A DNA stretch of 64,000 nt from assembly GCF_000332135.1 (NCBI RefSeq), contig NZ_KB235896.1, forward strand, positions 434,001 to 498,000, written 5' to 3'. The notes under the pieces were generated by a model. That model did not search any database, had not been told where the DNA came from, and worked only from the letters and a program-made list of their open reading frames with translations. Position numbers and translations under genes: made by a program. Source of the DNA: Anabaena sp. PCC 7108. GTDB lineage: Bacteria > Cyanobacteriota > Cyanobacteriia > Cyanobacteriales > Nostocaceae. Of the stretch, positions 6,449 through 18,551 are shown in pieces (the first letter of the stretch is position 1; each line of letters opens with the position of its first letter).

Positions 6449-6472
6449 TGATAATCAATTTGATAATCAATT
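6449..6472. promoter_or_regulatory. Tandem 12-bp direct repeat in a divergent promoter
   Basis: Two exact, adjacent copies of TGATAATCAATT lie between dapB (minus) and the DUF29 gene (plus). Exact back-to-back repetition in a divergent promoter suggests an operator. The TGATAAT part resembles one half of a Zur-type site, but there is no inverted partner, so no regulator can be named. Confidence 0.4.
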
Positions 6473-7574: not shown

Positions 7575-7649
7575 AATTGACCTCTTACATGATTATTGCT
7601 AACGAATAATTATGATGATGGCATTTCCCAATCAGATAAAATAGATTAT

Positions 7650-7685
7650 AGCCCCTTGCGGGGGTTGGGGGTGGGGTTTTTCTCA
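7650..7685. repeat. G-rich palindromic repeat
   Basis: The stretch has CCCC, a short TTGC loop, then runs of G interrupted by T. It resembles a dispersed cyanobacterial repeat and could fold into a hairpin. It sits upstream of the truncated AAA-like gene. No gene overlaps it with confidence. Confidence 0.35.
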
Positions 7686-7748
7686 ACCAAGAAACGCTAT
7701 ATTATTCTATATCATCTGCAAGTTTTACATCCATCACCCACGAAAACC

Positions 7749-8138
7749 ATGACTTCCCCTGTTCAACAATATTATCAATTTGGTGGTAGTCTTCCTCCTC
7801 ATGCACCGACTTACGTCACACGCAAAACAGATGAAGATTTATATCAAGCTGTGAAAGCTGGAGAGTTTTGTTTTGTTCTCAACTCTCTACAAATGGGAAA
7901 ATCAAGTTTGCGTGTCCGCACTATGCAAAGATTACAAACAGAAAAAATCGCTTGTGTCGCTATAGATTTAACAGCCATTGGCACATCAGGATTAAATTCT
8001 GAACAATGGTATAATGGCATTATTAATAATATTTCTGAAAGTTTAAAATTAGAAGATAAATTTGATTTAGATGCTTTATGGGAAGAAAATAAACCACTTT
8101 ATAAATTTGGCAAAATACACAATAATGATTATCATTAA
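7749..8138 (+). pseudogene. Truncated AAA-like (AAA_35/WD40-type) ATPase fragment
   Basis: From ATG 7749 the frame encodes about 115 residues matching the N-terminus of the large cyanobacterial AAA-like proteins that often carry WD40 repeats. It shows YYQFGGSLPPHAPTYVTRKTD, then a P-loop variant NSLQMGKSS, RTMQRL and a strand ending AIDLTAIGT. In intact relatives hundreds of residues follow. Here similarity ends near DLDALWEEN and the frame closes at 8138 after an unrelated tail that runs through the Zur-like box of the next gene. It is therefore a 5-prime remnant left by deletion or insertion. An earlier in-frame start at 7596 has no support. Any product would lack the Walker B and sensor regions. 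Confidence 0.75.
8120..8134. promoter_or_regulatory. Putative Zur box
   Basis: The sequence CAATAATGATTATCA matches the 7-1-7 palindrome TGATAATnATTATCA, recalled as the Anabaena Zur operator, at 7 of 7 positions in the right half and 5 of 7 in the left. It ends seven bases before the ATG of a COG0523-type GTPase gene, so Zur with zinc bound would block transcription or translation start. A second, closer match lies at 13478. Confidence 0.6.
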
Positions 8139-8141
8139 AAT

Positions 8142-8921
8142 ATGAATATACCAATCATCACAGTTGTTGCTGGACTTGCTGGCTGTGGGAAAACTACTTG
8201 GATTTGCCAAAAGTTGCAAAATACCGTTTCCCTTGACAATGTAATTTATTATAGTCCTGGAAATGGCAAGGTTCCCATAGACCAAACGCGCATAGCTGCG
8301 GAATTCCCAGAAGTAAAAGTCTTTGGAGACGGACAAGAAATCGAATTTTACACCCAGCTAGAAACCGCCAAACTAGCCTATATTGAACTGGGGTTTTATT
8401 TGGAATTAAGTGCCATTCAGCAAATATTAAATGATGTACCCTATATTGCTATAGCAATTTTACCACCACAGATCCAAGATTCTGAATATCATCATTGGGC
8501 AGAAAAAATTGTCAAAGGTGCAAATATTGATATCAGTATTTCCCCAAGTCAACTTTGGCGCGTTCCCAGCAGTGGTCAAGTAATTGACGAAGATAGTTTA
8601 AATGAATTTTGGTATGAAATTACTCATCATGCTTATGGTCAAGTTACCCGTGCTAAAGGAATTTTTGATGTAGCCGATGGTCGGTCAATTTACGGTGATT
8701 TTGTCGCGGGTATCCCAGCAACAGATTTTCTAGAATTGGACTTACCACGTCATTTAGAAGGCAGACCAGAGCGATTTAGTGGTATGGAAGTATGGGGTAA
8801 AAATTTAGACGAGTCAGCAATTAAACAAACTTTGCAAGATTGTTATTTATCAGACATCGGCATTAAACAATACCAAGAACAGGTTAAACTGATTTTATCA
8901 GAAGGGGAAATAAATCAGTGA
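8142..8921 (+). CDS. COG0523 (CobW-like) GTPase, divergent short form
   Basis: A 259-residue protein beginning with a strand and Walker A loop GLAGCGKTT (residues 11-19), as in the COG0523 metallochaperone family. Unlike the second member at 13520 it lacks the CxCC metal motif and I see no NKxD guanine-specificity loop. The C-terminal half (QVTRAKGIFDVADGR, then ERFSGMEVWG) resembles the CobW C-terminal domain. COG0523 proteins are linked to zinc, cobalt or nitrile-hydratase metal delivery. A Zur-like box immediately upstream suggests induction in zinc starvation. The stop overlaps the GTG start of the next gene (GTGA), so it is co-translated with a metallophosphoesterase-like protein. Metal specificity is inferred only. 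Confidence 0.7.
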   Translation: MNIPIITVVAGLAGCGKTTWICQKLQNTVSLDNVIYYSPGNGKVPIDQTRIAAEFPEVKVFGDGQEIEFYTQLETAKLAYIELGFYLELSAIQQILNDVPYIAIAILPPQIQDSEYHHWAEKIVKGANIDISISPSQLWRVPSSGQVIDEDSLNEFWYEITHHAYGQVTRAKGIFDVADGRSIYGDFVAGIPATDFLELDLPRHLEGRPERFSGMEVWGKNLDESAIKQTLQDCYLSDIGIKQYQEQVKLILSEGEINQ

Positions 8922-9730
8922 AAATAGCGGTAATGTCATGTATTCATGGCAACTCTGAAGCCTTGGATGCAGTTTTATCAGATATAGATCACCAAAAAGC
9001 GGAAAAAATCTTTTGTCTGGGAGATTTAGTCGGATATGGCCCTTATCCAAATGAGGTAGTCACACAAATTCGTTCTTTGGAAATTCCTACTTGTGCGGGT
9101 TGTTGGGATGAAGATATTGTTGAAGGGTTGAATGCGTGTGATTGCAGTTATCCTTCTTTGTTGGCTGAAAATCGGGGGAAAATAGCTCATGAATGGACAA
9201 ATCACCAAATTAATCCTGAAAATAGAGAATTTTTAGCTCAATTACCCCATAGTTTCCATGAAGAAAATTTAGCTTTTGTTCACGGTAGTCCCCACAGCAA
9301 CCACGAATACTTATTACCTGAACTGGACGCTTTTGCCGCTTTAGAACGAGTACTTTCCACAGATGCAGATGTGCTTTTTTGTGGTCATACTCATGTCCCC
9401 TATGTCCGTGACTTAGACGCAAGTAGTTTGCAAGTGCGTGTTCAAAGTCAAGGAACAGCAGCAAGAGAAATCAATTTTACAGCTAACTTGAAACGGATTA
9501 TTAATGTCGGTTCTGTGGGAGAACCTCGACATGGCAGACCCAATGCAACTTATGTGATTTATGACACCGATAATCAAGAAGTGAAGTTGCGGGAAGTTGC
9601 TTACGATTATCAAAAAACCTGTGCTGCAATTATTGAAAAGGGTTTACCTGCTATTTTTGCTTGGCGTTTGTCTCAAGGTTTGGAATATGCTGAAAGGGCT
9701 GATGATGCGACTCATGTTTGTACTAAGTAG
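8918..9730 (+). CDS. Metallophosphoesterase-fold protein with altered ligands (1)
   Basis: A 270-residue protein of the YfcE-like calcineurin phosphoesterase fold, starting at GTG 8918 and overlapping the previous stop by four bases. The second motif (GDLVGYG, Asp36), the VHGSP histidine and the final GHTH (His157, His159) are intact. The first motif, normally S-D-x-H-G-N, reads SCIHGN (Asp to Cys8), and the GNHD/GNHE motif reads GCWDE (Asn to Cys62, His to Trp63). Two canonical metal ligands are thus replaced by cysteine. The protein is unusually Cys-rich (also FCLGD, NACDCS, HVC). It may bind a thiophilic metal such as zinc or have lost phosphatase activity. Its position behind a Zur-boxed GTPase supports a metal role. 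Confidence 0.75.
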   Translation: MKIAVMSCIHGNSEALDAVLSDIDHQKAEKIFCLGDLVGYGPYPNEVVTQIRSLEIPTCAGCWDEDIVEGLNACDCSYPSLLAENRGKIAHEWTNHQINPENREFLAQLPHSFHEENLAFVHGSPHSNHEYLLPELDAFAALERVLSTDADVLFCGHTHVPYVRDLDASSLQVRVQSQGTAAREINFTANLKRIINVGSVGEPRHGRPNATYVIYDTDNQEVKLREVAYDYQKTCAAIIEKGLPAIFAWRLSQGLEYAERADDATHVCTK

Positions 9731-9808
9731 CGATTTACGGTTTTCCAAGAAATAAATTATCTAAGAAAACGAACCGCAGAGGCGCAGAGGGCGCAGAGAA
9801 ATAAGAAA

Positions 9809-10558
9809 ATGACTAAATGGGCGATTTTGAGCGGAATAGAGGGTAATTTAGCGGCTTATGAGGCTGTAATGGCTGATGTTAAGCTGCTGTGTGATGTTGA
9901 GGCTTTATATATTTTGGGCGATTTGGTGGGGCCAAATCCAGATTCTGAGAAGTTGGTAGCAAGAGTTCGTAACCCAAAGCGCGGGGAGTTGGAACCTTTA
10001 GTTTGTAAGGGTTGGTGGGAAGAACAATGTTTTATTCTCCACGGTGTGGCTGGAACTGGGGAACCGACGGAGTTAATGGCTAAGTATGGGGGAGATACTG
10101 TGAAGTTACTTTGGGATTCGGTTTCTCGTCCGACTGTAGAATGGTTGCGAAATTTAGATTTTGGTTTTTTTGAACTTGATTGTTTATTAATTCATGGTTC
10201 AACTGTAGCAATTGATGAAGCATTAACGCCAGAAACGCCTCCTATCCAAATGCTTGACCGTTTGGGACGTATGCAAGCTAATAATTTGTTTTGTGGTCGT
10301 TCTGGTTTGGCTTTTAGATATCAGCTAGAAGCAGGTTCTATTACTACTGGTGTGACGACTTTGGATAGTTCCTCTACTTCTGAAACTGTGGAAATTTCTT
10401 CGCGTCAAGTGATAGGTGTGGGTAATGTGGGCAGAAATCTGGGAGAAGCGATTTATACTGTTTATGATCCAGAGACGAATTTTTTAGAATTTAAAACTGT
10501 GCGTTACCGAGTTGAGAAAGATTATCAGGTTTTGGCTAGGGCAATTTCTGCTGAGTAA
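9809..10558 (+). CDS. Metallophosphoesterase-fold pseudoenzyme (2)
   Basis: A 249-residue paralogue-like protein downstream of gene 8918. The fold-defining order is kept (LSGIEGN, LGDLVGPNP, KGWWEE, IHGST, CGRSG) but most metal ligands are gone. The D-x-H motif is G-x-E, GNHD is GWWE, and GHTH is GRSG. Only the GD motif and the IHG histidine remain. Catalysis by the usual two-metal mechanism is therefore unlikely, and a binding or regulatory partner of the first protein is plausible. The shared W-D/W-E at the third motif suggests both descend from the same altered ancestor. The 78-base gap contains a cgcagaggcgcagag-type dispersed repeat, so co-transcription is uncertain. Confidence 0.75.
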   Translation: MTKWAILSGIEGNLAAYEAVMADVKLLCDVEALYILGDLVGPNPDSEKLVARVRNPKRGELEPLVCKGWWEEQCFILHGVAGTGEPTELMAKYGGDTVKLLWDSVSRPTVEWLRNLDFGFFELDCLLIHGSTVAIDEALTPETPPIQMLDRLGRMQANNLFCGRSGLAFRYQLEAGSITTGVTTLDSSSTSETVEISSRQVIGVGNVGRNLGEAIYTVYDPETNFLEFKTVRYRVEKDYQVLARAISAE

Positions 10559-10726
10559 TTTTGGATCTTGTTTCCCTAACCAGGAGTCAAGATCAGAATA
10601 TTGTATGGATTCTATTTAATTAAGTCAGATATTTTCAATGAATTTGGATAAGATGGACTGATTAACAATCAACTGGTCTGAAAAGATGGTTGGCTTGTTT
10701 TCCCAGTCACAAACTTTTTTCTAGAA

Positions 10727-11098
10727 ATGAACAGAAAATTTATCTTGGCCTTGCTTTCTAGTCCTGTCTTGTTTACGTCTATGCTATCTATGGTAATGAT
10801 GGCTAGACCTGCTCATGCTAGTCAAACAGTTACCCCTGTTGGAACTCATCTTTCTTGCGTTCGTTCTCCCCACTCAGCAACTGTGCGTCAAGTATGTATC
10901 CAGGCGGATAATGTTGCGCCTACGACAGCAAAACCAAAGATGGAATTGGCACAAGTTCAACCTAGTCAAAATCAGCCAGATGAACTAGTATTCACTGATG
11001 CAGAAAGTGATGAAGCGATTAAGTTATTTGGCTGTGATTGCCCAGTTTGCCTAAATGCTGTGCGTCAGTTGCATGGTATGGCACCTTTGGCCGTGTAG
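10727..11098 (+). CDS. Small exported protein with C-terminal GCxCxxC motif (1)
   Basis: A 123-residue protein with a clear signal peptide: basic MNRK, a hydrophobic core, and cleavage expected after PAHA at about residue 32. The middle is low-complexity and polar (Pro, Gln, Thr) with a Cys pair (LSCVRS, QVCIQ). The C-terminus ends in FGCDCPVCLNAVRQLHG, a compact three-cysteine cluster. A second gene at 15961 ends in a very similar motif, so the two form a family I do not recognise. The cysteines could bind metal or form disulfides after export. The gene lies in the region with Zur-like boxes, but no such box was found directly upstream. Confidence 0.65.
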   Translation: MNRKFILALLSSPVLFTSMLSMVMMARPAHASQTVTPVGTHLSCVRSPHSATVRQVCIQADNVAPTTAKPKMELAQVQPSQNQPDELVFTDAESDEAIKLFGCDCPVCLNAVRQLHGMAPLAV

Positions 11099-11212
11099 TT
11101 TGAAAAACCGTATTTATAGATAATCCAACGTTCATAAAGAAATACAACCGAGAATATCTGTCTTCATGATCAGGTAATCTAGCTGGATAATTGAGACAAA
11201 AGGGAAGAAGTA

Positions 11213-11242
11213 AAGAGTCAGAAAGTTAAATTTCTGGCTCTT
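11213..11242. terminator. Hairpin between convergent genes
   Basis: A 12-bp stem (AAGAGTCAGAAA with TTTCTGGCTCTT, one G-T pair) and a 6-base loop lies between the small Cys-motif gene (plus) and psaK (minus). The minus-strand read-out is followed by a T-rich stretch, so it best fits psaK termination and may act in both directions. Confidence 0.6.
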
Positions 11243-11300
11243 AGCTAGAAGAAGAATAACCAATAAATCAATTTAATACCAGCAAAATTGGGACTCAAGC

Positions 11301-11561
11301 TTAGATTCTGCCGATGTTGTGGAGTCCTAAGATGATTCCTGCACCTAAGATATGACCAAAGGAGGTGGTTGCTAATACAGCAGGTAAACCAAAACCACCA
11401 AAGAAATTGGGTGCGGGTAAAGCAGGTTCTGCACTAGGATACTTGATTGTAAATTTGCCAACTGCGATCGCTATAATGTTGGCGAGAATCATGATGATGC
11501 CAACATTGGGAGTCCATTCTAGAGCTGCGGGTACAGTAGCAAGTAAGGTTGATGTCAACAT
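11301..11561 (-). CDS. psaK: Photosystem I reaction centre subunit PsaK
   Basis: An 86-residue protein from ATG 11561, preceded by a good AGGAGAG ribosome site. The frame stays open upstream, but that extension does not fit the family. Two transmembrane helices (about residues 15-38 and 57-80) are joined by a short PAP/FFGGFGLPA loop. The family hallmarks TPNVGIIMILANIIAIA and FGHILGAGIILGL are present. PsaK sits at the edge of photosystem I and contributes antenna chlorophyll binding and state-transition functions. The gene is monocistronic, with a likely terminator at 11213-11242 and a promoter region upstream to about 11760. Confidence 0.92.
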   Translation of the reverse strand: MLTSTLLATVPAALEWTPNVGIIMILANIIAIAVGKFTIKYPSAEPALPAPNFFGGFGLPAVLATTSFGHILGAGIILGLHNIGRI

Positions 11562-11845
11562 CGGTTTCTCTCCTGAGATTATGGAATCATTGACAATATA
11601 ATCTTCAAAATTCGCCTTAAAAATCAACAAAAAGCCCATTTTTGCAGCAATATTTAACAGTTGTTGCCAATACTTAATATAAACAATTACTTTACGGATG
11701 CCATTTGGTCATCAGCAATACAATTACCAAATGAATTGTCTTGTTTTGACGGAGAAGACAATGAGCAATCGCTAAACTGAATAAGAGCGATCGCTCTCCA
11801 GATAATTTAAACTCAAGATGAGACTGACTATTTATTTACTCTATT

Positions 11846-12280
11846 ATGTCCTCAAGTATTGATTCCTTACCACCTGCTTTAGCTAAAATCGTCCAACGCT
11901 TCCAACGTGCTACCGAACCAAAGCGACGTTACGAACAGTTAATTTGGTATGCTCAAAAGTTGCCAGAGTTTCCCGAAGCTGATAAATTACCCGAAAACAA
12001 AGTTCCTGGTTGCGTCTCACAGGTATATGTGACAGCATCACTGGATGATGGGAAAGTTGTTTTTCAGGGAGATTCTGATTCCCAGCTAACTAAGGGATTA
12101 TTAGCGCTGTTAATCGAAGGATTAAACGGACTAGCACCAACCGAAATTGTCCAATTAACTCCTGATTTTATTCAAGCTACTGGTTTAAATGTTAGCTTGA
12201 CACCTTCCCGCGCTAACGGTTTTTACAACATTTTCAAAACCATGCAGAAAAAAGCTTTGGAATGTAAGTTAGAGAATTAG
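11846..12280 (+). CDS. sufE: SufE family sulfur acceptor
   Basis: A 144-residue protein of the SufE/CsdE family. It takes persulfide sulfur from the cysteine desulfurase SufS and stimulates it for iron-sulfur cluster assembly. The sulfur-accepting cysteine lies in the hallmark KVPGCVSQVYV (Cys56). Other family elements are RYEQLIWYAQKLP near residue 29-40 and the LTPSRANGFYNIF block near the C-terminus. Its length is typical. It stands alone, without suf operon genes beside it, as usual for cyanobacterial sufE. Downstream comes a G-rich degenerate repeat and a large heptamer array. Confidence 0.92.
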   Translation: MSSSIDSLPPALAKIVQRFQRATEPKRRYEQLIWYAQKLPEFPEADKLPENKVPGCVSQVYVTASLDDGKVVFQGDSDSQLTKGLLALLIEGLNGLAPTEIVQLTPDFIQATGLNVSLTPSRANGFYNIFKTMQKKALECKLEN

Positions 12281-12334
12281 GACGCGGAGAAGAAGAGACG
12301 CGGGGACGCGGAGAGGGGGAGACACGGAGGAATG

Positions 12335-12559
12335 ACCAATCACCAATCACCAATCACCAATCACCAATCACCAATCACCAATCACCAATTACCAATTACC
12401 AATTACCAATTACCAATTACCAATTACCAATCACCAATCACCAATCACCAATCACCAATCACCAATCACCAATTACCAATTACCAATTACCAATTACCAA
12501 TTACCAATTACCAATCACCAATCACCAATCACCAATCACCAATTACCAATTACCAATTA
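12335..12559. repeat. Large heptamer tandem array (ACCAATC/ACCAATT)
   Basis: About 32 tandem copies of a 7-bp unit alternate in blocks of ACCAATC and ACCAATT. Because 7 is not a multiple of 3, the array reads open in several frames and produces a false protein of repeated TNHQSPI/TNYQLPI. It resembles the STRR heptanucleotide repeats of heterocyst-forming cyanobacteria and abuts the start of the hydrolase gene at 12567. The 45 bases before it (about 12286-12330) are a degenerate GACGCGGAGA-type repeat also seen at 19498-19611. Confidence 0.92.
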
Positions 12560-12566
12560 AATCAAG

Positions 12567-13475
12567 ATGTCTACCAATTTATTAACAAAACCTGCTGGTG
12601 CATTTGGTGGTGAAGTTCAAGAATTTCTCTGGAATTGGGAAAATCAGCAATTGCAGGTGATTTATGAAACTCTTGGCCAAGGTTCTCCGCTTTTGTTGCT
12701 TCCCGCATTTAGTAGTGTTTCTACAAGGGGAGAAATGGGAGAACTTGCTAAATTACTCGCTTCCCATTTTCAAGTTACCGCGTTAGACTGGCCAGGTTTT
12801 GGGGAATCGTCCCGACTAAAATTAGATTACAACTCGGCAATATATCAGCAATTTTTGGCAGATTTCGTGAAATCTGTGTTTAGTATCCCTATTATTGTAG
12901 TTGCTGCTGGTCATGCTGCTGGTTATGTGCTGCAACTAGCCGTTAAACAGCCAAATGCTTTTTCGCGGATTGTTCTAGTAGCACCAACTTGGCGTGGTCC
13001 TCTACCGACAATGGGAGCAAATCCAAATATAGCTGCTATGGTGAGGGGATTAGTACAAACGCCTATTCTCGGTCAAGCACTTTATAAACTTAACACTACC
13101 CCATCTTTCTTAAGTTGGATGTACAGCCGCCATGTCTTCACCGACACAGCGAAACTTACACCCAGTTTCATCACCGAAAAATGGCAAAGCACTCAACAAC
13201 CAAACGCCAGATTTGCTTCTGCGGCCTTTGTCACCGGCAATATAGATACTATTCATAGTCAATCAGAGTTTCTATACCTAGCACAGTCCTTATCTGCCCC
13301 ACTAATGGCGGTAATTAGCGAATCTAGCCCCCCGAAGTCACGACAAGAAATGGACGCATTGGCAGCTTTACCAGGCGTTAGCAGCGTTGTAGTTCCTGGT
13401 TCTTTGGGACTGCATGAAGAATACCCAGCAGTAGTTTTTGAGGCAATATTACCATTTTTAACAAGGGTGTGTTAG
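12567..13475 (+). CDS. Alpha/beta-hydrolase fold protein lacking the nucleophile serine
   Basis: A 302-residue alpha/beta-hydrolase with the fold's landmarks: LLLLPAFSS near residue 48-57 as oxyanion loop, ALDWPGFGES near 72-81, and a terminal LHEEYP with the catalytic-type His283. The nucleophile elbow, usually G-x-S-x-G, reads GHAAG with Ala117, so the standard serine is absent. A helical cap region spans about 145-230. Either it is a non-hydrolytic family member or it uses different chemistry. The start ATG 12567 sits directly after the heptamer array, and its ribosome site would lie in repeat-derived sequence. The stop is three bases before the Zur-like box of the next gene, so the genes are probably separately controlled. 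Confidence 0.75.
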   Translation: MSTNLLTKPAGAFGGEVQEFLWNWENQQLQVIYETLGQGSPLLLLPAFSSVSTRGEMGELAKLLASHFQVTALDWPGFGESSRLKLDYNSAIYQQFLADFVKSVFSIPIIVVAAGHAAGYVLQLAVKQPNAFSRIVLVAPTWRGPLPTMGANPNIAAMVRGLVQTPILGQALYKLNTTPSFLSWMYSRHVFTDTAKLTPSFITEKWQSTQQPNARFASAAFVTGNIDTIHSQSEFLYLAQSLSAPLMAVISESSPPKSRQEMDALAALPGVSSVVVPGSLGLHEEYPAVVFEAILPFLTRVC

Positions 13476-13477
13476 AC

Positions 13478-13492
13478 AGATAATGATTATCA
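13478..13492. promoter_or_regulatory. Putative Zur box
   Basis: AGATAATGATTATCA matches the 7-1-7 palindrome TGATAATnATTATCA at 13 of 14 defined positions. It lies 27 bases upstream of the ATG of a CobW/COG0523 gene, between the hydrolase stop and that start. This is the position expected for a repressor site that responds to zinc. The palindrome is seen directly; the regulator is inferred from the motif. Confidence 0.75.
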
Positions 13493-13519
13493 ACAAATCA
13501 TCAAATTTGGTTTAAGATT

Positions 13520-14491
13520 ATGATGGCTTCAGAAACATTAACGACCGTGCCTGTAACCGTTTTAACTGGCTATTTAGGTGCAGGTAAAACCACTCTACTC
13601 AATCACATTCTGACTTACGAACACGGTAAAAAAGTTGCTGTCATCGTCAATGAATTTGGGGAAGTAGGCATTGATAATCAACTAGTTATTGATGCAGATG
13701 AAGAAATCTTTGAAATGAACAATGGCTGTATTTGTTGTACAGTTCGGGGTGACTTAATTCGCATCATCGGCAATTTGATGAAGCGTCGTGATAAATTTGA
13801 CCATTTAGTAATTGAAACCACTGGATTAGCAGATCCTGCACCTGTAATTCAGACATTTTTTGTAGATGAAGATATGCAGAGTCAATTGTCATTAGATGCA
13901 GTAGTTACAGTTGTCGATGCCAAGCATATTTGGCAACATTGGGAAGCAGATGAAGCCCAAGAACAAATTGCATTTGCTGATGTAATTTTATTGAATAAAA
14001 CCGATTTAGTCACCCCAGAAAATTTACAAGAATTAGAAAAGCGGATTCGGTCGATGAATGCGATCGCTAAAATCTACCGCACCCAAAACTCAGAATTAGG
14101 AATGGATGCATTATTAGGTGTAAAAGCCTTTGATTTAGACCGCGCTTTAGAAATTGACCCCAACTTCTTAGGTGAAGATGCCCATGTACATGATGAAAGC
14201 GTTTATTCTGTAGCTTTTGTAGAAAAAGGCGAAATAGACGGACAAAAATTAAACGAATGGTTAAGTGAATTATTACGTACTCAAGGACCAGATATCTTTC
14301 GCATGAAAGGCATTTTAAACATTGCAGGAGAAGATGATCGCTTTGTTTTTCAAGGAGTACACATGATATTTGATGGTAAACCAGATAGACCTTGGAAAGC
14401 CAGCGAAACCCGGAAAAATGAACTTGTATTTATTGGTCGGAATCTTGATGAAGCTAAATTAAAACAAGATTTTCTAGCCTGTCTGGTGTAA
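13520..14491 (+). CDS. CobW/COG0523 GTP-dependent metallochaperone
   Basis: A 323-residue protein with all expected motifs: Walker A GYLGAGKTT (17-25), the NEFGE loop (44-48), the metal-binding GCICC (Cys70, Cys72, Cys73), ETTGLADP near 107, NKTD guanine loop (159-162), and a CobW C-terminal domain from about 230. There is a short AHVHDE linker rather than a long His-rich stretch. COG0523 proteins deliver metal to client enzymes using GTP. The Zur-like box upstream points to a zinc-starvation role, as proposed for ZNG1/ZagA-type members. A WD40 gene follows after a gap holding an inverted-repeat element. The identity as COG0523 is sure and the client protein unknown. Confidence 0.92.
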   Translation: MMASETLTTVPVTVLTGYLGAGKTTLLNHILTYEHGKKVAVIVNEFGEVGIDNQLVIDADEEIFEMNNGCICCTVRGDLIRIIGNLMKRRDKFDHLVIETTGLADPAPVIQTFFVDEDMQSQLSLDAVVTVVDAKHIWQHWEADEAQEQIAFADVILLNKTDLVTPENLQELEKRIRSMNAIAKIYRTQNSELGMDALLGVKAFDLDRALEIDPNFLGEDAHVHDESVYSVAFVEKGEIDGQKLNEWLSELLRTQGPDIFRMKGILNIAGEDDRFVFQGVHMIFDGKPDRPWKASETRKNELVFIGRNLDEAKLKQDFLACLV

Positions 14492-14543
14492 ATCCAAATA
14501 TTCTCTCTTCGTAAGTATTCAGCCATAGCACTTGTTCATACCC

Positions 14544-14609
14544 AGATCCCCGACTTCTGACATCAATTTATAATTTGTGGACACAATAAACAAAAGAAGT
14601 CGGGGATCT
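14544..14609. mobile_element. Inverted-repeat element (agatccccgacttct)
   Basis: Perfect 15-bp inverted repeats, AGATCCCCGACTTCT at 14544-14558 and AGAAGTCGGGGATCT at 14595-14609, enclose 36 bases. The element lies in the 362-base gap between the CobW gene and the WD40 gene. It looks like a dispersed miniature element, and could also form a strong hairpin that ends transcription after the CobW gene. The rest of the gap (14610-14853) contains a degenerate palindromic repeat near 14660-14700 and no gene. Confidence 0.7.
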
Positions 14610-14853
14610 TATTGCCCTACCTGAATTCTTACCTCTCTTCTTCCTTCTTCCTTCGCGATCTTCGCGCCTATCCCTACGGGACACTGCGTGAACGCGGTTC
14701 AATAAATCATATTCTCAGATGCAAATCGAGGTATTAGAAATAAAATGTAAAACTAGGCGTTGGTGAATAAAAATGATAAATTTATATCCTAAATCAACAA
14801 CGCCATTTTCTTTTCGTTTAGTAAAAAAATAATATTGTCCATCATATCCAGAC

Positions 14854-15909
14854 ATGAACCCTACAACTAATAAATCTCCAGAATTTACAGCTTACTATTC
14901 AGGTCAGCTTGCAGATTATGTAACATCTTTAACTTGGTCAAACCAAGGAGAAAAACTAGCTGCAACTTCCGCTGCTGGAGAAGTTATCCTCTGGGAAAAT
15001 AGCGAAATTACAACCTTACAAACTGCCACAAATAAATCAGTAGATTGCGTGGCATTTTCTGCCGATAGTAAATATTTAGCCGTCGGTGGACAAGATGGAA
15101 AAGTGAAAATCTGGCGAGAAAATCAATTAATTACCACTTTAGAAAACGCCCCGGCTTGGGTTGATAAATTAGCTTGGAATCATACCAACAACCAACTAGC
15201 ATTTAGTTTAGGGCGTTACGTCCAGGTATGGGATGCATACACATCAGAAATTATCATCACCCTCAATTTTGAAAACTCATCAATTTTAGGAATTGATTGG
15301 CGTAAAGATGGGCAATATTTAGCCATTAGCGGTTATCAAGGAGTAAAAATTTGGAATACTCAAGATTGGGATGAAGAACCTTATATTTTAGCCACGACTA
15401 CAGTGAGTGTAGCAATGGCTTGGTCTCCTGACGGCAAATACTTAGCTTCTGGCAATATGGATCGTAGTATCACCGTCTTGGAATGGGGAAATCCCGATCC
15501 TTGGGTAATGCGAGGCTTTCCGGGGAAAATTCGCCAATTAGCTTGGTCAGAAGCCACTACAGCCGTTGGTGCGCCACTTTTAGCCTCTTCCAGTGTTGAG
15601 GGCGTAGTCGTTTGGGAAAAATCAGAGGATGAGTCATTGGGTTGGGAATCGCGCATATTGACTAATCATGTGGATATAATTAATGCGATCGCATTCGCAC
15701 CTTCAAGTTTTCTTCTCGCTTCCGCAGCAGCTGATGGTTGGCTGTGCTTGTGGAACCAAGCCACCGAAGTATCCCAAATTCTCACAGGTGTCCATGCTGG
15801 ATTTTCTACCCTAGCTTGGCATCCCAGTAGGAGTGGAGTTTCCCCACCCTTAATCGCCGCAGGTGGGGAACAAGGGGAACTACTTATTTGGTCAAAAACT
15901 ACTGACTAA
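14854..15909 (+). CDS. WD40 repeat protein
   Basis: A 351-residue protein made almost wholly of WD40 repeats. About seven can be counted by the recurring pattern of a W-S/D-P-D-G-K-x-L-A-x-x turn and a closing W (for example FSADSKYLAVGG...VKIW, WSPDGKYLASG, FAPSSFLLASAAADGWLCLW). This suggests one seven-bladed propeller without extra domains, signal peptide or membrane helix. Such proteins act as scaffolds. It follows the Zur-boxed CobW gene and precedes a small GCxCxxC protein and a ZnuA-like gene, so a role in metal handling is possible but unproven. No Zur-type site was found directly upstream. Confidence 0.85.
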   Translation: MNPTTNKSPEFTAYYSGQLADYVTSLTWSNQGEKLAATSAAGEVILWENSEITTLQTATNKSVDCVAFSADSKYLAVGGQDGKVKIWRENQLITTLENAPAWVDKLAWNHTNNQLAFSLGRYVQVWDAYTSEIIITLNFENSSILGIDWRKDGQYLAISGYQGVKIWNTQDWDEEPYILATTTVSVAMAWSPDGKYLASGNMDRSITVLEWGNPDPWVMRGFPGKIRQLAWSEATTAVGAPLLASSSVEGVVVWEKSEDESLGWESRILTNHVDIINAIAFAPSSFLLASAAADGWLCLWNQATEVSQILTGVHAGFSTLAWHPSRSGVSPPLIAAGGEQGELLIWSKTTD

Positions 15910-15960
15910 TCACTAATAATTGGCTATGCTGTATCAGCAGCGGCCTCTAAAGTGTGAACT

Positions 15961-16224
15961 ATGAACATAGCCAAACTGATTTTGCTTGCTTGTCCTGTTT
16001 TTCTGGCATCTCTGCTACTGGTAGCTAATCCAGCCCATGCATTGGGTAGAAACGGAGTCATCACTCTAGCTACACCATCTGCACACAACAATATTGAAAT
16101 AACAGCACCAAATTTTGGTTTAGTAACCAATCCAATTATTGATCAATTAGGTTGCGGTTGCTCAACTTGTGTTCAGGCTAAATTTCAGATGTTACAAGGT
16201 CAGTTACCTGCTGCTGGCTTTTAG
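15961..16224 (+). CDS. Small exported protein with C-terminal GCxCxxC motif (2)
   Basis: An 87-residue protein with a signal peptide (MNIAK, hydrophobic core, predicted cleavage after AHA near residue 27). A short polar middle follows, and then a C-terminal LGCGCSTCVQAKFQMLQG. The three cysteines and the following helix with a closing L-x-G match the C-terminus of the protein at 10727, while the rest differs. It is therefore the second member of an apparently unrecognised family. A strong terminator follows at 16252. The neighbours are a WD40 gene and a metal-binding lipoprotein gene, which favours metal binding over a purely structural disulfide role. Confidence 0.65.
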   Translation: MNIAKLILLACPVFLASLLLVANPAHALGRNGVITLATPSAHNNIEITAPNFGLVTNPIIDQLGCGCSTCVQAKFQMLQGQLPAAGF

Positions 16225-16251
16225 TAAAGTTAGGAGTTATGAAAATTTCCT

Positions 16252-16277
16252 AGGCACAGCATGACTGTGCCTTTATT
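16252..16277 (+). terminator. Intrinsic terminator
   Basis: A perfect 8-bp stem (AGGCACAG with CTGTGCCT), a five-base loop and a following TTATT stretch lie 27 bases after the stop of the small Cys-motif gene. They separate it from the ZnuA-like gene. Confidence 0.75.
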
Positions 16278-16313
16278 AATTTGAGATATGTAAGTTTTCA
16301 GGATAATTAGAGG

Positions 16314-17321
16314 ATGTTAGAAAAGTCAAAAAACATACTATTTAATCAATTATTAAATGCCGCTTTTTTTACTATTACACTTGGATTTGCAGGGTGTAGA
16401 AATCAACCTATAAATACAGCATACACCCAAACTAATCAAAACAGCAGCATTAACAGAAATCTTCCTCAAGTTGTAGCAACGACAAGTATACTCTGTGATT
16501 TAACTAAACAGATTGCCGGGACAAGCATTAACCTTACCTGTTTGATTCCCCCTGGTTTAGATCCTCGCTTTTATCAACCCACACCAGAAGATAGACAAGC
16601 CATTGCACAAGCTAATCTTATTTTCTATCATGGCTACAACTTTGAACCAGCTTTAATCAAAATTATTACAACCAAACAAAACCGAGCGCGGAAAATAGCT
16701 GTCGCCCAACTCGCCGTAGCACAGCCTCAAAAATTACAAAATCAAGGTAAAGAAATTACTGAACCACATATTTGGCACAATCCCAAAAATGCTATCAAAA
16801 TAGTAGAGATAATTAATAGTAATTTAGGAAAAATATCGCCTAAAAATGCCAAAAACTATAGTAGTAATACCAAAAAAGTTACAAAAGAATTAAACCAACT
16901 CAATATCTGGATTAAATCTAGACTTGCTAGTATTCCTACCAAAAATCGCAAACTAATGATCAATCATCCAGCAATGATTTATTATATTAAAGCTTATGGA
17001 TTGCCCTATAAAGGAAGTTTGCTAAATATTAGTGATGAAGAAAATTTAACAAATACAAAAGTTAAAAACATGGCTAAAGATATTCAAAAAGCTAAAGTCA
17101 TAACAATTTTTGCAGACACAAAAACCAACTCTAATTTGCTAAAAAATATAGCCAAACAAGCTAATGTCAAACTTTTCCCTAGAGAACTTTATACAAATGG
17201 ACTAGGTGAACCAGGTAGTGATGGAGAAACCTATCAAAAAATGATGGATGCTAATACACGCAGCATTGTAGAAGGATTGGGTGGAACTTATCTGAAATTT
17301 GCACCGAACATTTCCCCCTAG
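16314..17321 (+). CDS. Metal ABC transporter substrate-binding protein (ZnuA/MntC/TroA family)
   Basis: A 335-residue lipoprotein-type binding protein. The N-terminus has a hydrophobic stretch ending in a lipobox-like FAGC (Cys near residue 28). Cluster A-1 features are VVATTSILCDLTKQI, a first His in YHGYNFEP, a second in EPHIWHNP (His152, with His155 close), a third in NHPAMIYY (His218), and a late acidic residue in the GSDGETY region. There is no His-rich loop, which is often present in ZnuA, so zinc and manganese both remain possible. No permease or ATPase gene is beside it. The stop is only six bases before ackA, so the two may share a transcript. Confidence 0.88.
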   Translation: MLEKSKNILFNQLLNAAFFTITLGFAGCRNQPINTAYTQTNQNSSINRNLPQVVATTSILCDLTKQIAGTSINLTCLIPPGLDPRFYQPTPEDRQAIAQANLIFYHGYNFEPALIKIITTKQNRARKIAVAQLAVAQPQKLQNQGKEITEPHIWHNPKNAIKIVEIINSNLGKISPKNAKNYSSNTKKVTKELNQLNIWIKSRLASIPTKNRKLMINHPAMIYYIKAYGLPYKGSLLNISDEENLTNTKVKNMAKDIQKAKVITIFADTKTNSNLLKNIAKQANVKLFPRELYTNGLGEPGSDGETYQKMMDANTRSIVEGLGGTYLKFAPNISP

Positions 17322-17327
17322 GTAAAT

Positions 17328-18551
17328 ATGAATATATTAGTATTAAATGCCGGATCAAGTAGCCAGAAAGTTTGTCTGTATGAAATTACAGATCACACTA
17401 TTCTCAACCAAGCACCACAACCTCTTTGGGAAGGAAAAATTAGCTGGACTCAAGACCAAGGTGGAGCAGAAATCGAGGTAAAAACAGCAACAGGTGCAGT
17501 GCTGCAAGAATATATCGACGGTGACTCCCGCAGCGCACATTTTGCCTATATACTCCATACTCTCAGTCACGGTGCGACTAAAGTTATCAGTCAATTGTCA
17601 GACATCGATCTAGTCGGACATCGGATAGTACATGGTGGACAAGACTACCGCCAAACTGTGGTAATTACAGAAGATGTCAAAAACGCCATCGCTCGTCTTT
17701 CTACCCTGGCTCCAGCCCATAATCCAGCGGCTGTGGATGGCATAGAAGCCATTGAACAAAGCTTGGGAGATGTTATCCAATTTGCAGTATTTGATACTGG
17801 GTTTCATAGTACTTTACCTGATGCAGCCGCTATTTATCCTGGCCCCTATGAATGGGTAGAACAAGGTATCCGCCGCTACGGGTTTCATGGTATCAGTCAC
17901 CAGTACTGTTCTAGTCGTGCAGCACAAATCCTGGGTCGAGATTTAAACGAACTGCGGTTAATAACCTGTCATTTAGGTAATGGTTGCTCTTTAGCGGCAG
18001 TTAAAAATGGTCGCAGTATTGATACAACTATGGGTTTTACGCCTCTTGATGGCTTGATGATGGGTAGTCGTTGTGGATCAATTGATCCGGGGATTCTGAT
18101 TTATCTATTGCGTCAATGTGATTACTCAGCAGAAAGGCTAGATTATGTTTTAAATAAGGCTTCTGGATTACGGGGAATTTCGGGCGTTTCTAATGATTTA
18201 CGGGAAATAATAGCCGCAATTAACCAAGGCAATGAACGCGCCCAATTAGCTTGGGATATATACGTACATCGCTTACAGGCTGGTATCGGTTCTATGCTGG
18301 CTAGTTTGGGAGGTTTAGATGCTTTAGTTTTCACTGGTGGGGTAGGGGAAAAATCTCCCAGAATTCGTCAAGAGGCTTGTACAGCTTGGGAATTTTTGGG
18401 ATTGAAAATAGATGTTGTCAAAAATCAGCAGCAGCCAATTGATGTAGATATTGCTACATCTGATTCCGCTGTGCGAGTATTAGTTATACATACTCAAGAA
18501 GATTGGGCTATAGCACAACAATGTTGGCAATTATATAAAATCAATAATTAG
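17328..18551 (+). CDS. ackA: Acetate kinase
   Basis: A 407-residue enzyme that interconverts acetate and ATP with acetyl phosphate and ADP. The phosphate-binding NAGSSSQK lies at residues 7-14. The family stretches VFDTGFHSTLPDAAAIYPGPYEW (about 152-175) and RRYGFHGISHQY (about 182-194), the adenosine-binding HLGNGCSLAA, and GGVGEKSPRIR near the C-terminus are all present. The length is as expected. It begins six bases after a metal-binding protein gene, which looks like chance adjacency rather than shared function. No phosphotransacetylase gene is near. Confidence 0.95.
   Translation: MNILVLNAGSSSQKVCLYEITDHTILNQAPQPLWEGKISWTQDQGGAEIEVKTATGAVLQEYIDGDSRSAHFAYILHTLSHGATKVISQLSDIDLVGHRIVHGGQDYRQTVVITEDVKNAIARLSTLAPAHNPAAVDGIEAIEQSLGDVIQFAVFDTGFHSTLPDAAAIYPGPYEWVEQGIRRYGFHGISHQYCSSRAAQILGRDLNELRLITCHLGNGCSLAAVKNGRSIDTTMGFTPLDGLMMGSRCGSIDPGILIYLLRQCDYSAERLDYVLNKASGLRGISGVSNDLREIIAAINQGNERAQLAWDIYVHRLQAGIGSMLASLGGLDALVFTGGVGEKSPRIRQEACTAWEFLGLKIDVVKNQQQPIDVDIATSDSAVRVLVIHTQEDWAIAQQCWQLYKINN

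Follow-up and report, generated by a model that had tools for sequence, protein, structure and literature searches.

What do two Zur-like palindromes, each lying just upstream of a gene for a COG0523-type protein, control in the cyanobacterium Anabaena sp. PCC 7108? The question is raised by a 64,000-nucleotide stretch of this genome (contig NZ_KB235896.1, positions 434,001 to 498,000), here called the window, whose internal coordinates are used throughout. An earlier note on this DNA described positions 8120 to 17321 as one zinc-starvation cluster under the regulator Zur. The connection with zinc and Zur is upheld by a Zur-like protein, conserved boxes, zinc-related gene neighbors and published expression data for a homologue, but the single cluster is not: it resolves into two operons. 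In the reading that we consider probable, and hold with moderate confidence, both operons are repressed by Zur; operon B belongs to a known zinc-handling group, and operon A is a conserved zinc-economy module that comprises a Cys-substituted metallophosphoesterase (MPE1), a dead relative of it (MPE2) and a helper nucleoside triphosphatase (NTPase), cobWs. The respective features are as follows.

Putative Zur box A, 8120..8136, no strand assigned: a 7-1-7 palindrome at 8120-8134 (12 of 14 positions) that overlaps the exact core AATGATTATCATT at 8124-8136.
cobWs, 8142..8921, plus strand: a 259-residue COG0523-like P-loop NTPase without CxCC or NKxD.
MPE1, 8918..9730, plus strand: a metallophosphoesterase in which C8 takes the place of Asp and C62 that of Asn; the gene begins with GTG and shares its first 4 bases with the end of cobWs.
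MPE2, 9809..10558, plus strand: a metallophosphoesterase-like protein with most ligand positions lost (SGIEGN, GWWEE, GRSG), probably a pseudoenzyme.
Putative Zur box B, 13478..13492, no strand assigned: a palindrome matching at 13 of 14 positions, the inner 13-mer of which is the only exact GATAATNATTATC in the genome.
COBW, 13520..14491, plus strand: a full COG0523 GTPase with GYLGAGKTT, NGCICC and NKTD.
WD40 repeat protein, 14854..15909, plus strand: a member of operon B, 362 bases 3' of COBW.
GC2, 15961..16224, plus strand: a short protein with GCGCSTC and an N-terminus that looks signal-like by eye; the gene lies 3' of the WD40 gene in 14 of 40 mapped regions.
ZnuA-family binding protein, 16314..17321, plus strand: a PF01297 protein (247 bits) with no neighboring ABC genes in the list of open reading frames (ORFs).

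The two operons emerge from a map of 40 regions of relatives and 79 further loci, in which the recurrent units are box-cobWs-MPE1-MPE2 (operon A) and box-COBW-WD40-(GC2)-ZnuA-like (operon B). These units are conserved but the whole stretch is not, and the genes between them come and go. The one-cluster reading was rejected because cobWs-MPE1-MPE2 occurs without the intervening genes and COBW-WD40 occurs without operon A; sufE (11846) and a hydrolase gene (12567) are often found upstream of COBW in relatives, but 5' of its box. Within operon A, the overlap of cobWs and MPE1 is followed by a gap of 78 bases before MPE2; in operon B, WD40 and GC2 are separated by 51 bases, and GC2 and the ZnuA-like gene by 89. 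We infer that the genes of each operon are cotranscribed. Profile matches agree with the gene identities previously proposed, namely CobW (214 bits), Metallophos_2 (78 bits), WD40 and ZnuA (247 bits), and the description of a metallophosphoesterase-like pair with Cys-substituted or lost ligands is accurate. The COG0523 assignment holds in full for the 13520 protein, with its complete motif set, but only in part for the 8142 protein, in which CxCC and NKxD are missing.

The two palindromes of the TGATAATNATTATCA type are present just 5' of these two genes as the earlier note had stated. The palindrome of box A at 8120-8134, CAATAATGATTATCA, ends 7 bases 5' of the ATG at 8142; that of box B at 13478-13492, AGATAATGATTATCA, ends 27 bases 5' of the ATG at 13520. 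The best-centered palindrome at box A is located at 8124-8136, which corrects the placement at 8120-8134. The exact GATAATNATTATC (13479-13491) occurs once in the 5,886,741-base genome, 5' of the 13520 gene, as does the exact AATGATNATCATT (8124-8136), 5' of the 8142 gene, and the latter is identical to the core of the cyanobacterial Zur box NTNANAATGATNATCATTNTNAN that is quoted in the Methods of PMC9337993. Motif counting alone was uninformative as evidence, the counts being ordinary in both the window and the genome. The window contains 12 palindrome matches with at most 3 mismatches (9.0 expected from shuffles) and four with at most 2, at 6461, 8120, 10513 (inside MPE2) and 13478; the genome contains 121 of the latter kind compared to 140 for the reversed pattern. 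With at most one mismatch, GATAATNATTATC is found at 45 places (55 for the reversed pattern) and AATGATNATCATT at 53 (44), with no clear excess in either case. When all 45 places of GATAATNATTATC were inspected, five had a G or C center and lay outside ORFs of at least 200 amino acids, and four of these five precede cobWs, COBW, a znuA gene and a gene for a TonB-dependent receptor. The 200-residue rule was chosen post hoc, with the sites already known, and discounts ORFs of 180, 54 and 126 amino acids; a partial AAA_35 domain (residues 64-164) is present in the longest of them. The fifth site (L148:1213-1593) is G-centered with one mismatch and overlaps the start of the 126-residue ORF, which has a zinc-ribbon-like CxxC-CxxC pattern, yielded no Pfam match above the cut-off and could be a further Zur target. 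The 180-residue ORF with the partial AAA_35 domain (7596-8138) ends at box A; two congeners diverge from the window just 5' of this box, and the 7596-8138 piece looks like a recent arrival.

More telling is the conservation of the boxes in relatives. The 8142 protein is present in 58, and the 13520 protein (at E 1e-80) in 93, of the 99 genomes of the family to which the window belongs. Of the 30 loci listed for the 8142 gene, 22 have a site matching at 12 or more of 14 positions at -22 to -25 relative to the start of the match, and 23 of the 30 listed for the 13520 gene have such a site at -31 to -58, the window's own copy being counted as one in each set. Much of the DNA around these boxes differs between the relatives, and both positions recur in other genera. 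In a second set, which partly overlaps the first, a site (matching at 12 of 14 positions, or at 11 of the 12 in the inner core) is located within 300 base pairs (bp) 5' of the 8142-type gene in 50 of 76 testable loci, compared to 12 of 1,520 shuffled upstream regions; three of 79 loci were left out for lack of a usable hit or with less than 200 bp upstream. By the same measure, boxes precede MPE1 in 0 of 76 and MPE2 in 4 of 76 cases (poor controls, their upstream DNA being mostly coding), COBW in 9 of 10, WD40 in 0 of 13, sufE in 0 of 8, psaK in 0 of 10, the hydrolase gene in 1 of 9 and dapB in 6 of 13, all six of the last being, by coordinates, the cobWs box in a shared divergent gap. Both palindromes are genuine, and their identification as Zur sites is well supported; Zur of Anabaena sp. 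PCC 7108 would be expected to bind them. Some loci depart from the usual arrangement. In one genome (G075, L113:11218-12187), the box is kept, only two short fragments of cobWs persist and the beginning of MPE1 continues into MPE2. In L233, L239 and L243, a methyltransferase gene (with Pfam support for L233) is inserted between MPE1 and MPE2, and a gene for a FAD/NAD(P)-binding protein is divergent from operon A, with a Zur-like box between them.

The presence of a Zur gene in the genome, the lack of which would have refuted the earlier note, is borne out. Three of the four FUR-family proteins encoded in the genome are, to judge from gene neighbors, presumably FurA, a protein of the PerR type (its gene adjoins a peroxiredoxin-like gene) and another kind; the remaining one (L002) is closest to 7NE9, the structure of Synechococcus WH8102 Zur (E 2.5e-28), and next to 2o03, a probable zinc uptake regulator FurB.

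The gene neighborhoods of operon A point in the same direction. Among the matches listed in a pattern-based survey, 42 of 79 cobWs loci (L172-L250) contain a zur, znu, hemB2, folE, thrS2, hisI or CobW gene, and 30 contain at least two, compared to 1 of 20 and 0 of 20 arbitrary control regions; the controls were taken at round coordinates, from the window's family only and at 17 kb each, and the cobWs loci measure up to 16.8 kb and reach other orders. A zinc-type neighbor was found in 6 of 20 class-wide loci. The thresholds for all of these neighbor counts were set by the analyst. In Trichormus variabilis ATCC 29413 (plasmid A), znuC-znuA-hemB is followed by thrS-DUF1636-CobW-methyltransferase-hisI-(hypothetical)-cobWs-MPE1-MPE2, so that operon A here, as in a Dolichospermum plasmid, is embedded in a typical zinc-sparing island. 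Among 242 genomes of the class, MPE1 was detected in 84 (E 1e-60), cobWs in 88 (E 1e-15), MPE2 in 84 (E 1e-40) and all three in 78, including genomes of about 1.7 Mb. The order of cobWs and MPE1 is nearly constant. Of the 81 genomes with both genes, 78 have cobWs upstream of MPE1 in the same orientation and within 2.5 kb, and MPE1 and MPE2 are at most 2.5 kb apart in 74 of 81. Because the 79-locus and 242-genome sets share members, their counts cannot be treated as independent, nor can related genomes be taken as separate events. On these comparative grounds, Zur control of both operons appears close to certain.

Indirect experimental backing comes from a homologue. In Synechococcus sp. PCC 7002, the pAQ7 genes hemB-II, folE-II, G0131 and G0132 are raised in a zur mutant and with N,N,N',N'-tetrakis(2-pyridylmethyl)ethylenediamine (TPEN), and G0129 (a phosphoesterase) and G0130 are not raised in the mutant (Ludwig et al. 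2015, PMC4628125). By gene order, old and new locus tags having been matched in the same way, G0131 is a truncated cobWs homologue of 165 residues and G0129 is the 3' part of an MPE2. The Zur- and TPEN-responsive cobWs homologue is preceded by a perfect box, TGATAATTATTATCA (14 of 14). The cluster differs from operon A in that cobWs is cut short, MPE1 is missing from the region and MPE2 persists only as a 3' piece; in the genome entry (Picosynechococcus sp. PCC 7002, L273:8977-10748), the broken operon comprises the truncated cobWs, another ORF and the MPE2 piece, and PCC 7117 has the full cobWs-MPE1-MPE2 set at the same place. Dependence of expression on zur and TPEN, in print for the PCC 7002 homologue, is predicted for operon A of Anabaena sp. 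PCC 7108.

What, then, would operon A do? MPE1 belongs to PF12850 (78.2 bits), with 3rqz as the best PDB match, and shares the fold family and most motif positions with class III, calcineurin-like metallophosphoesterases, the usual signature of which is DxH-GD-GNH[E/D]-H-GHxH (PMC4320098). It differs from these enzymes in having Cys at the Asp of DxH and the Asn of GNHD, in all 74 and all 20 homologues of two alignments; in the YfcE-type GNCD, Cys is found at the His position instead. The first alignment, with cut-offs of 85% for coverage and 55% for identity, comprised 74 of 79 loci; the second was hand-picked from the 84 genomes with MPE1. C8, C62 and C155, which precedes GHTH, are invariant in both (74/74 and 20/20); a homologue from Adhaeribacter has D, N and F at these positions. 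H10, D36, H122, H157 and H159 are invariant as well, as are C74 and C76, both of which are also present in the canonical Adhaeribacter homologue. In structures of the metallophosphoesterase superfamily, the Asp of DxH binds one metal and the Asn of GNHD the other, so each metal of MPE1 would gain one thiolate. No canonical paralogue that MPE1 could replace was detected, a search of its own genome at E 0.001 yielding only MPE1 and MPE2. MPE2 has no Pfam hit at E 0.01 and, of the ligand positions, keeps only GD and the His of HGS; the DxH, GNHD and GHxH ligands are lost, and the residues that replace them, GWWEE and GRSG, hardly vary among 73 sequences (85% coverage and 45% identity, 73 of 79 loci), which argues for a retained, non-catalytic role. 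Judging from these motifs, MPE2 is probably a pseudoenzyme.

The cobWs protein has the P-loop and SIMIBI/G3E-type fold of COG0523 proteins and a CobW_C domain barely above the cut-off (PF07683, 22.3 bits compared to 22), and neither CxCC nor NKxD or TKxD is found in any of 41 aligned homologues, the window's own included (six listed sequences, L238, L239, L245, L274, L275 and L276, were omitted). An AlphaFold model built from these 41 rows has a mean predicted local distance difference test (pLDDT) score of 91.7; an earlier model from 13 close sequences (pLDDT 56.6) was not used in the fold search. By Foldseek E-value, the first match of the model is YjiA, the zinc-binding COG0523 GTPase of Escherichia coli (4ixm, 1nij; 1.1e-8 over 324 alignment columns), but the template modeling score is only 0.31 and the root-mean-square deviation (rmsd) over the whole chain is 18.1, as a different angle between the two domains would produce. 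Apart from this low score, cobWs differs from YjiA in its length of 259 residues and in the absence of CxCC and NKxD. By structural Z, SIMIBI GTPases come first (12.2, rmsd 3.0, residues 1-129), and VIA-align 2 ranks FtsY/Ffh first over residues 1-132, with YjiA and other COG0523 chains absent from its 50 best rows; these matches cover residues 1-132, so the C-terminal half is little tested there.

Taken together, these features suggest the following mechanism. Zinc-bound Zur would repress operons A and B at 8120-8136 and 13478-13492, and both would open at zinc shortage. MPE1 would keep a two-metal site with one ligand per metal swapped for Cys, D8 at one metal and N62 at the other, an exchange that should allow it to retain its metal when zinc is scarce or to take another soft metal. 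MPE2 would be its partner, without catalytic activity. The cobWs protein, driven by NTP, would help by loading or checking MPE1 but, lacking CxCC, would not carry the metal itself. The metal binding, the partnership of the three proteins and the reaction are predicted here from sequence and context. In its fullest form, the proposal is of a Zur-controlled three-protein machine in many cyanobacteria, including those with genomes of about 1.7 Mb, in which a CxCC-less G3E-like NTPase matures a phosphoesterase with one thiolate per metal site and a dead paralogue as partner, both metals being re-engineered for zinc starvation; we advance it tentatively, as possible rather than probable.

Several observations weigh against the reading of operon A as a Zur-controlled zinc-economy module. 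In the PCC 7002 data, the phosphoesterase fragment G0129 is not induced; the likely reason is that it is a remnant of a broken operon, and this breakage means that G0129 provides no clean test of operon A. The whole module is present in only 78 of 242 genomes and so is not essential to the zinc response. At the thresholds used, 14 of the 20 class-wide loci have no zinc-type neighbor, and some of the znuA neighbors counted are operon B's own gene in close relatives of the window. A box is absent from the 300 bp next to the gene in 26 of 76 cobWs loci, several of which sit in longer gene runs with a box further up. The metal binding and activity of MPE1 are predictions, and boxes A and B match the E. 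coli-type Fur box at 15 and 14 of 19 positions, respectively.

One alternative accepts the same Zur control but denies MPE1 an enzymatic role: it would store or relay zinc, passing the scarce metal on to proteins of high priority, and MPE2 and cobWs would dock with it. The Cys residues at both metal shells and the invariance of C155 and of C74/C76 fit such a role, as do the loss of most ligands in the partner MPE2 and the zinc-requiring or zinc-sparing enzymes encoded near operon A. However, a mere store would not need the invariant H10, D36, H122, H157 and H159, and C74 and C76 occur in the canonical Adhaeribacter homologue too; we regard this alternative as unlikely. Far less probable is a role of the boxes as sites for iron regulation (Fur/FurA) or as dual sites, with operons that respond to iron or to several metals. 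The boxes of the Fur family overlap in sequence, which the resemblance to the E. coli-type box illustrates, and Zur of Anabaena also regulates furA (PMC10957091), but the Anabaena FurA consensus AAATAAATTCTCAATAAAT (PMC4005646) fits boxes A and B at only 12 and 13 of 19 positions (raw counts), the box A core equals the published Zur box (PMC9337993), the neighbors in relatives include zinc genes and zur itself, and the zur mutant of PCC 7002 shows higher expression of the homologue (PMC4628125). That the palindromes arose by chance in AT-rich gaps before unrelated genes is hardly credible: matches at 12 of 14 positions are indeed common (the genome has 121 and, for the reversed pattern, 140; one lies inside MPE2 at 10513), but the single exact genome copies and the conservation at fixed distances in other genera contradict it.

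Operon B, the other half of the preferred reading, is more familiar. COBW has the P-loop, CxCC, NKxD and CobW_C features of COG0523 (PF02492, 214.1 bits; PF07683, 96.5 bits). In the ZnuA-like protein, the first His of DPHxYQP, a metal ligand in ZnuA, is replaced by Arg (DPRFYQP), also in two congeners, and is kept in several other relatives. Bacterial members of COG0523 subfamily 5 are reported to cluster with WD40 and znuABC genes, several of them behind predicted Zur sites (Haas et al. 2009, PMC2770081). Operon B shares with this neighborhood the COG0523, WD40 and ZnuA-type genes and the Zur site and differs from it in the addition of GC2, the solitary binding protein and the loss of one His ligand; it fits this known zinc-handling group, to which COBW is assigned solely from its surroundings, namely the WD40 and ZnuA-type genes and the Zur box. 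Neither Zur regulons nor COG0523 genes controlled by Zur are new: in Anabaena sp. PCC 7120, Zur controls the COG0523 genes alr1197, all1751 and all4722, znuABC, TonB receptors and paralogues of zinc enzymes (PMC6103462, PMC10957091). The accessible parts of these accounts name COG0523 genes, as at the loci described here, and no metallophosphoesterase pair, unlike operon A. Anabaena PCC 7120 is not among the cobWs loci listed in the pattern-based survey; COBW may correspond to either alr1197 or all1751. The proposal that the assembly of partners is undescribed therefore fails for operon B, which is not a new assembly, and stands for operon A, of which no description was found in the literature searched, although the Cys-substituted phosphoesterase module may still figure in lists of predicted Zur targets.

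Some other features of the stretch are worth recording. The ackA gene starts 6 bases 3' of the ZnuA-like gene (17321-17328) and lies close behind it in L086 and L087, from two congeners; transcripts from the Zur promoter of operon B could extend into this acetate kinase gene. Between the operons, GC1 (10727-11098) encodes an exported-looking protein with GCDCPVC and was found in 5 of 40 regions of relatives; upstream of it at 199 bp, within MPE2 (10513-10527), is a palindrome matching at 12 of 14 positions. A long array of 7-base repeats (CAATCAC, CAATTAC) at 12332-12560 leaves a 93-codon open frame before the hydrolase gene.

Operon A bears on the role and the clients of COG0523-type NTPases under zinc starvation. 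The COG0523-like cobWs is tied to a single neighbor, MPE1, in 78 of 81 genomes, which makes the two a candidate pair for client-specific metallation, with a residue-level prediction in C8 and C62. Operon A, which is shared by very different cyanobacteria, may help cells to live with little zinc.

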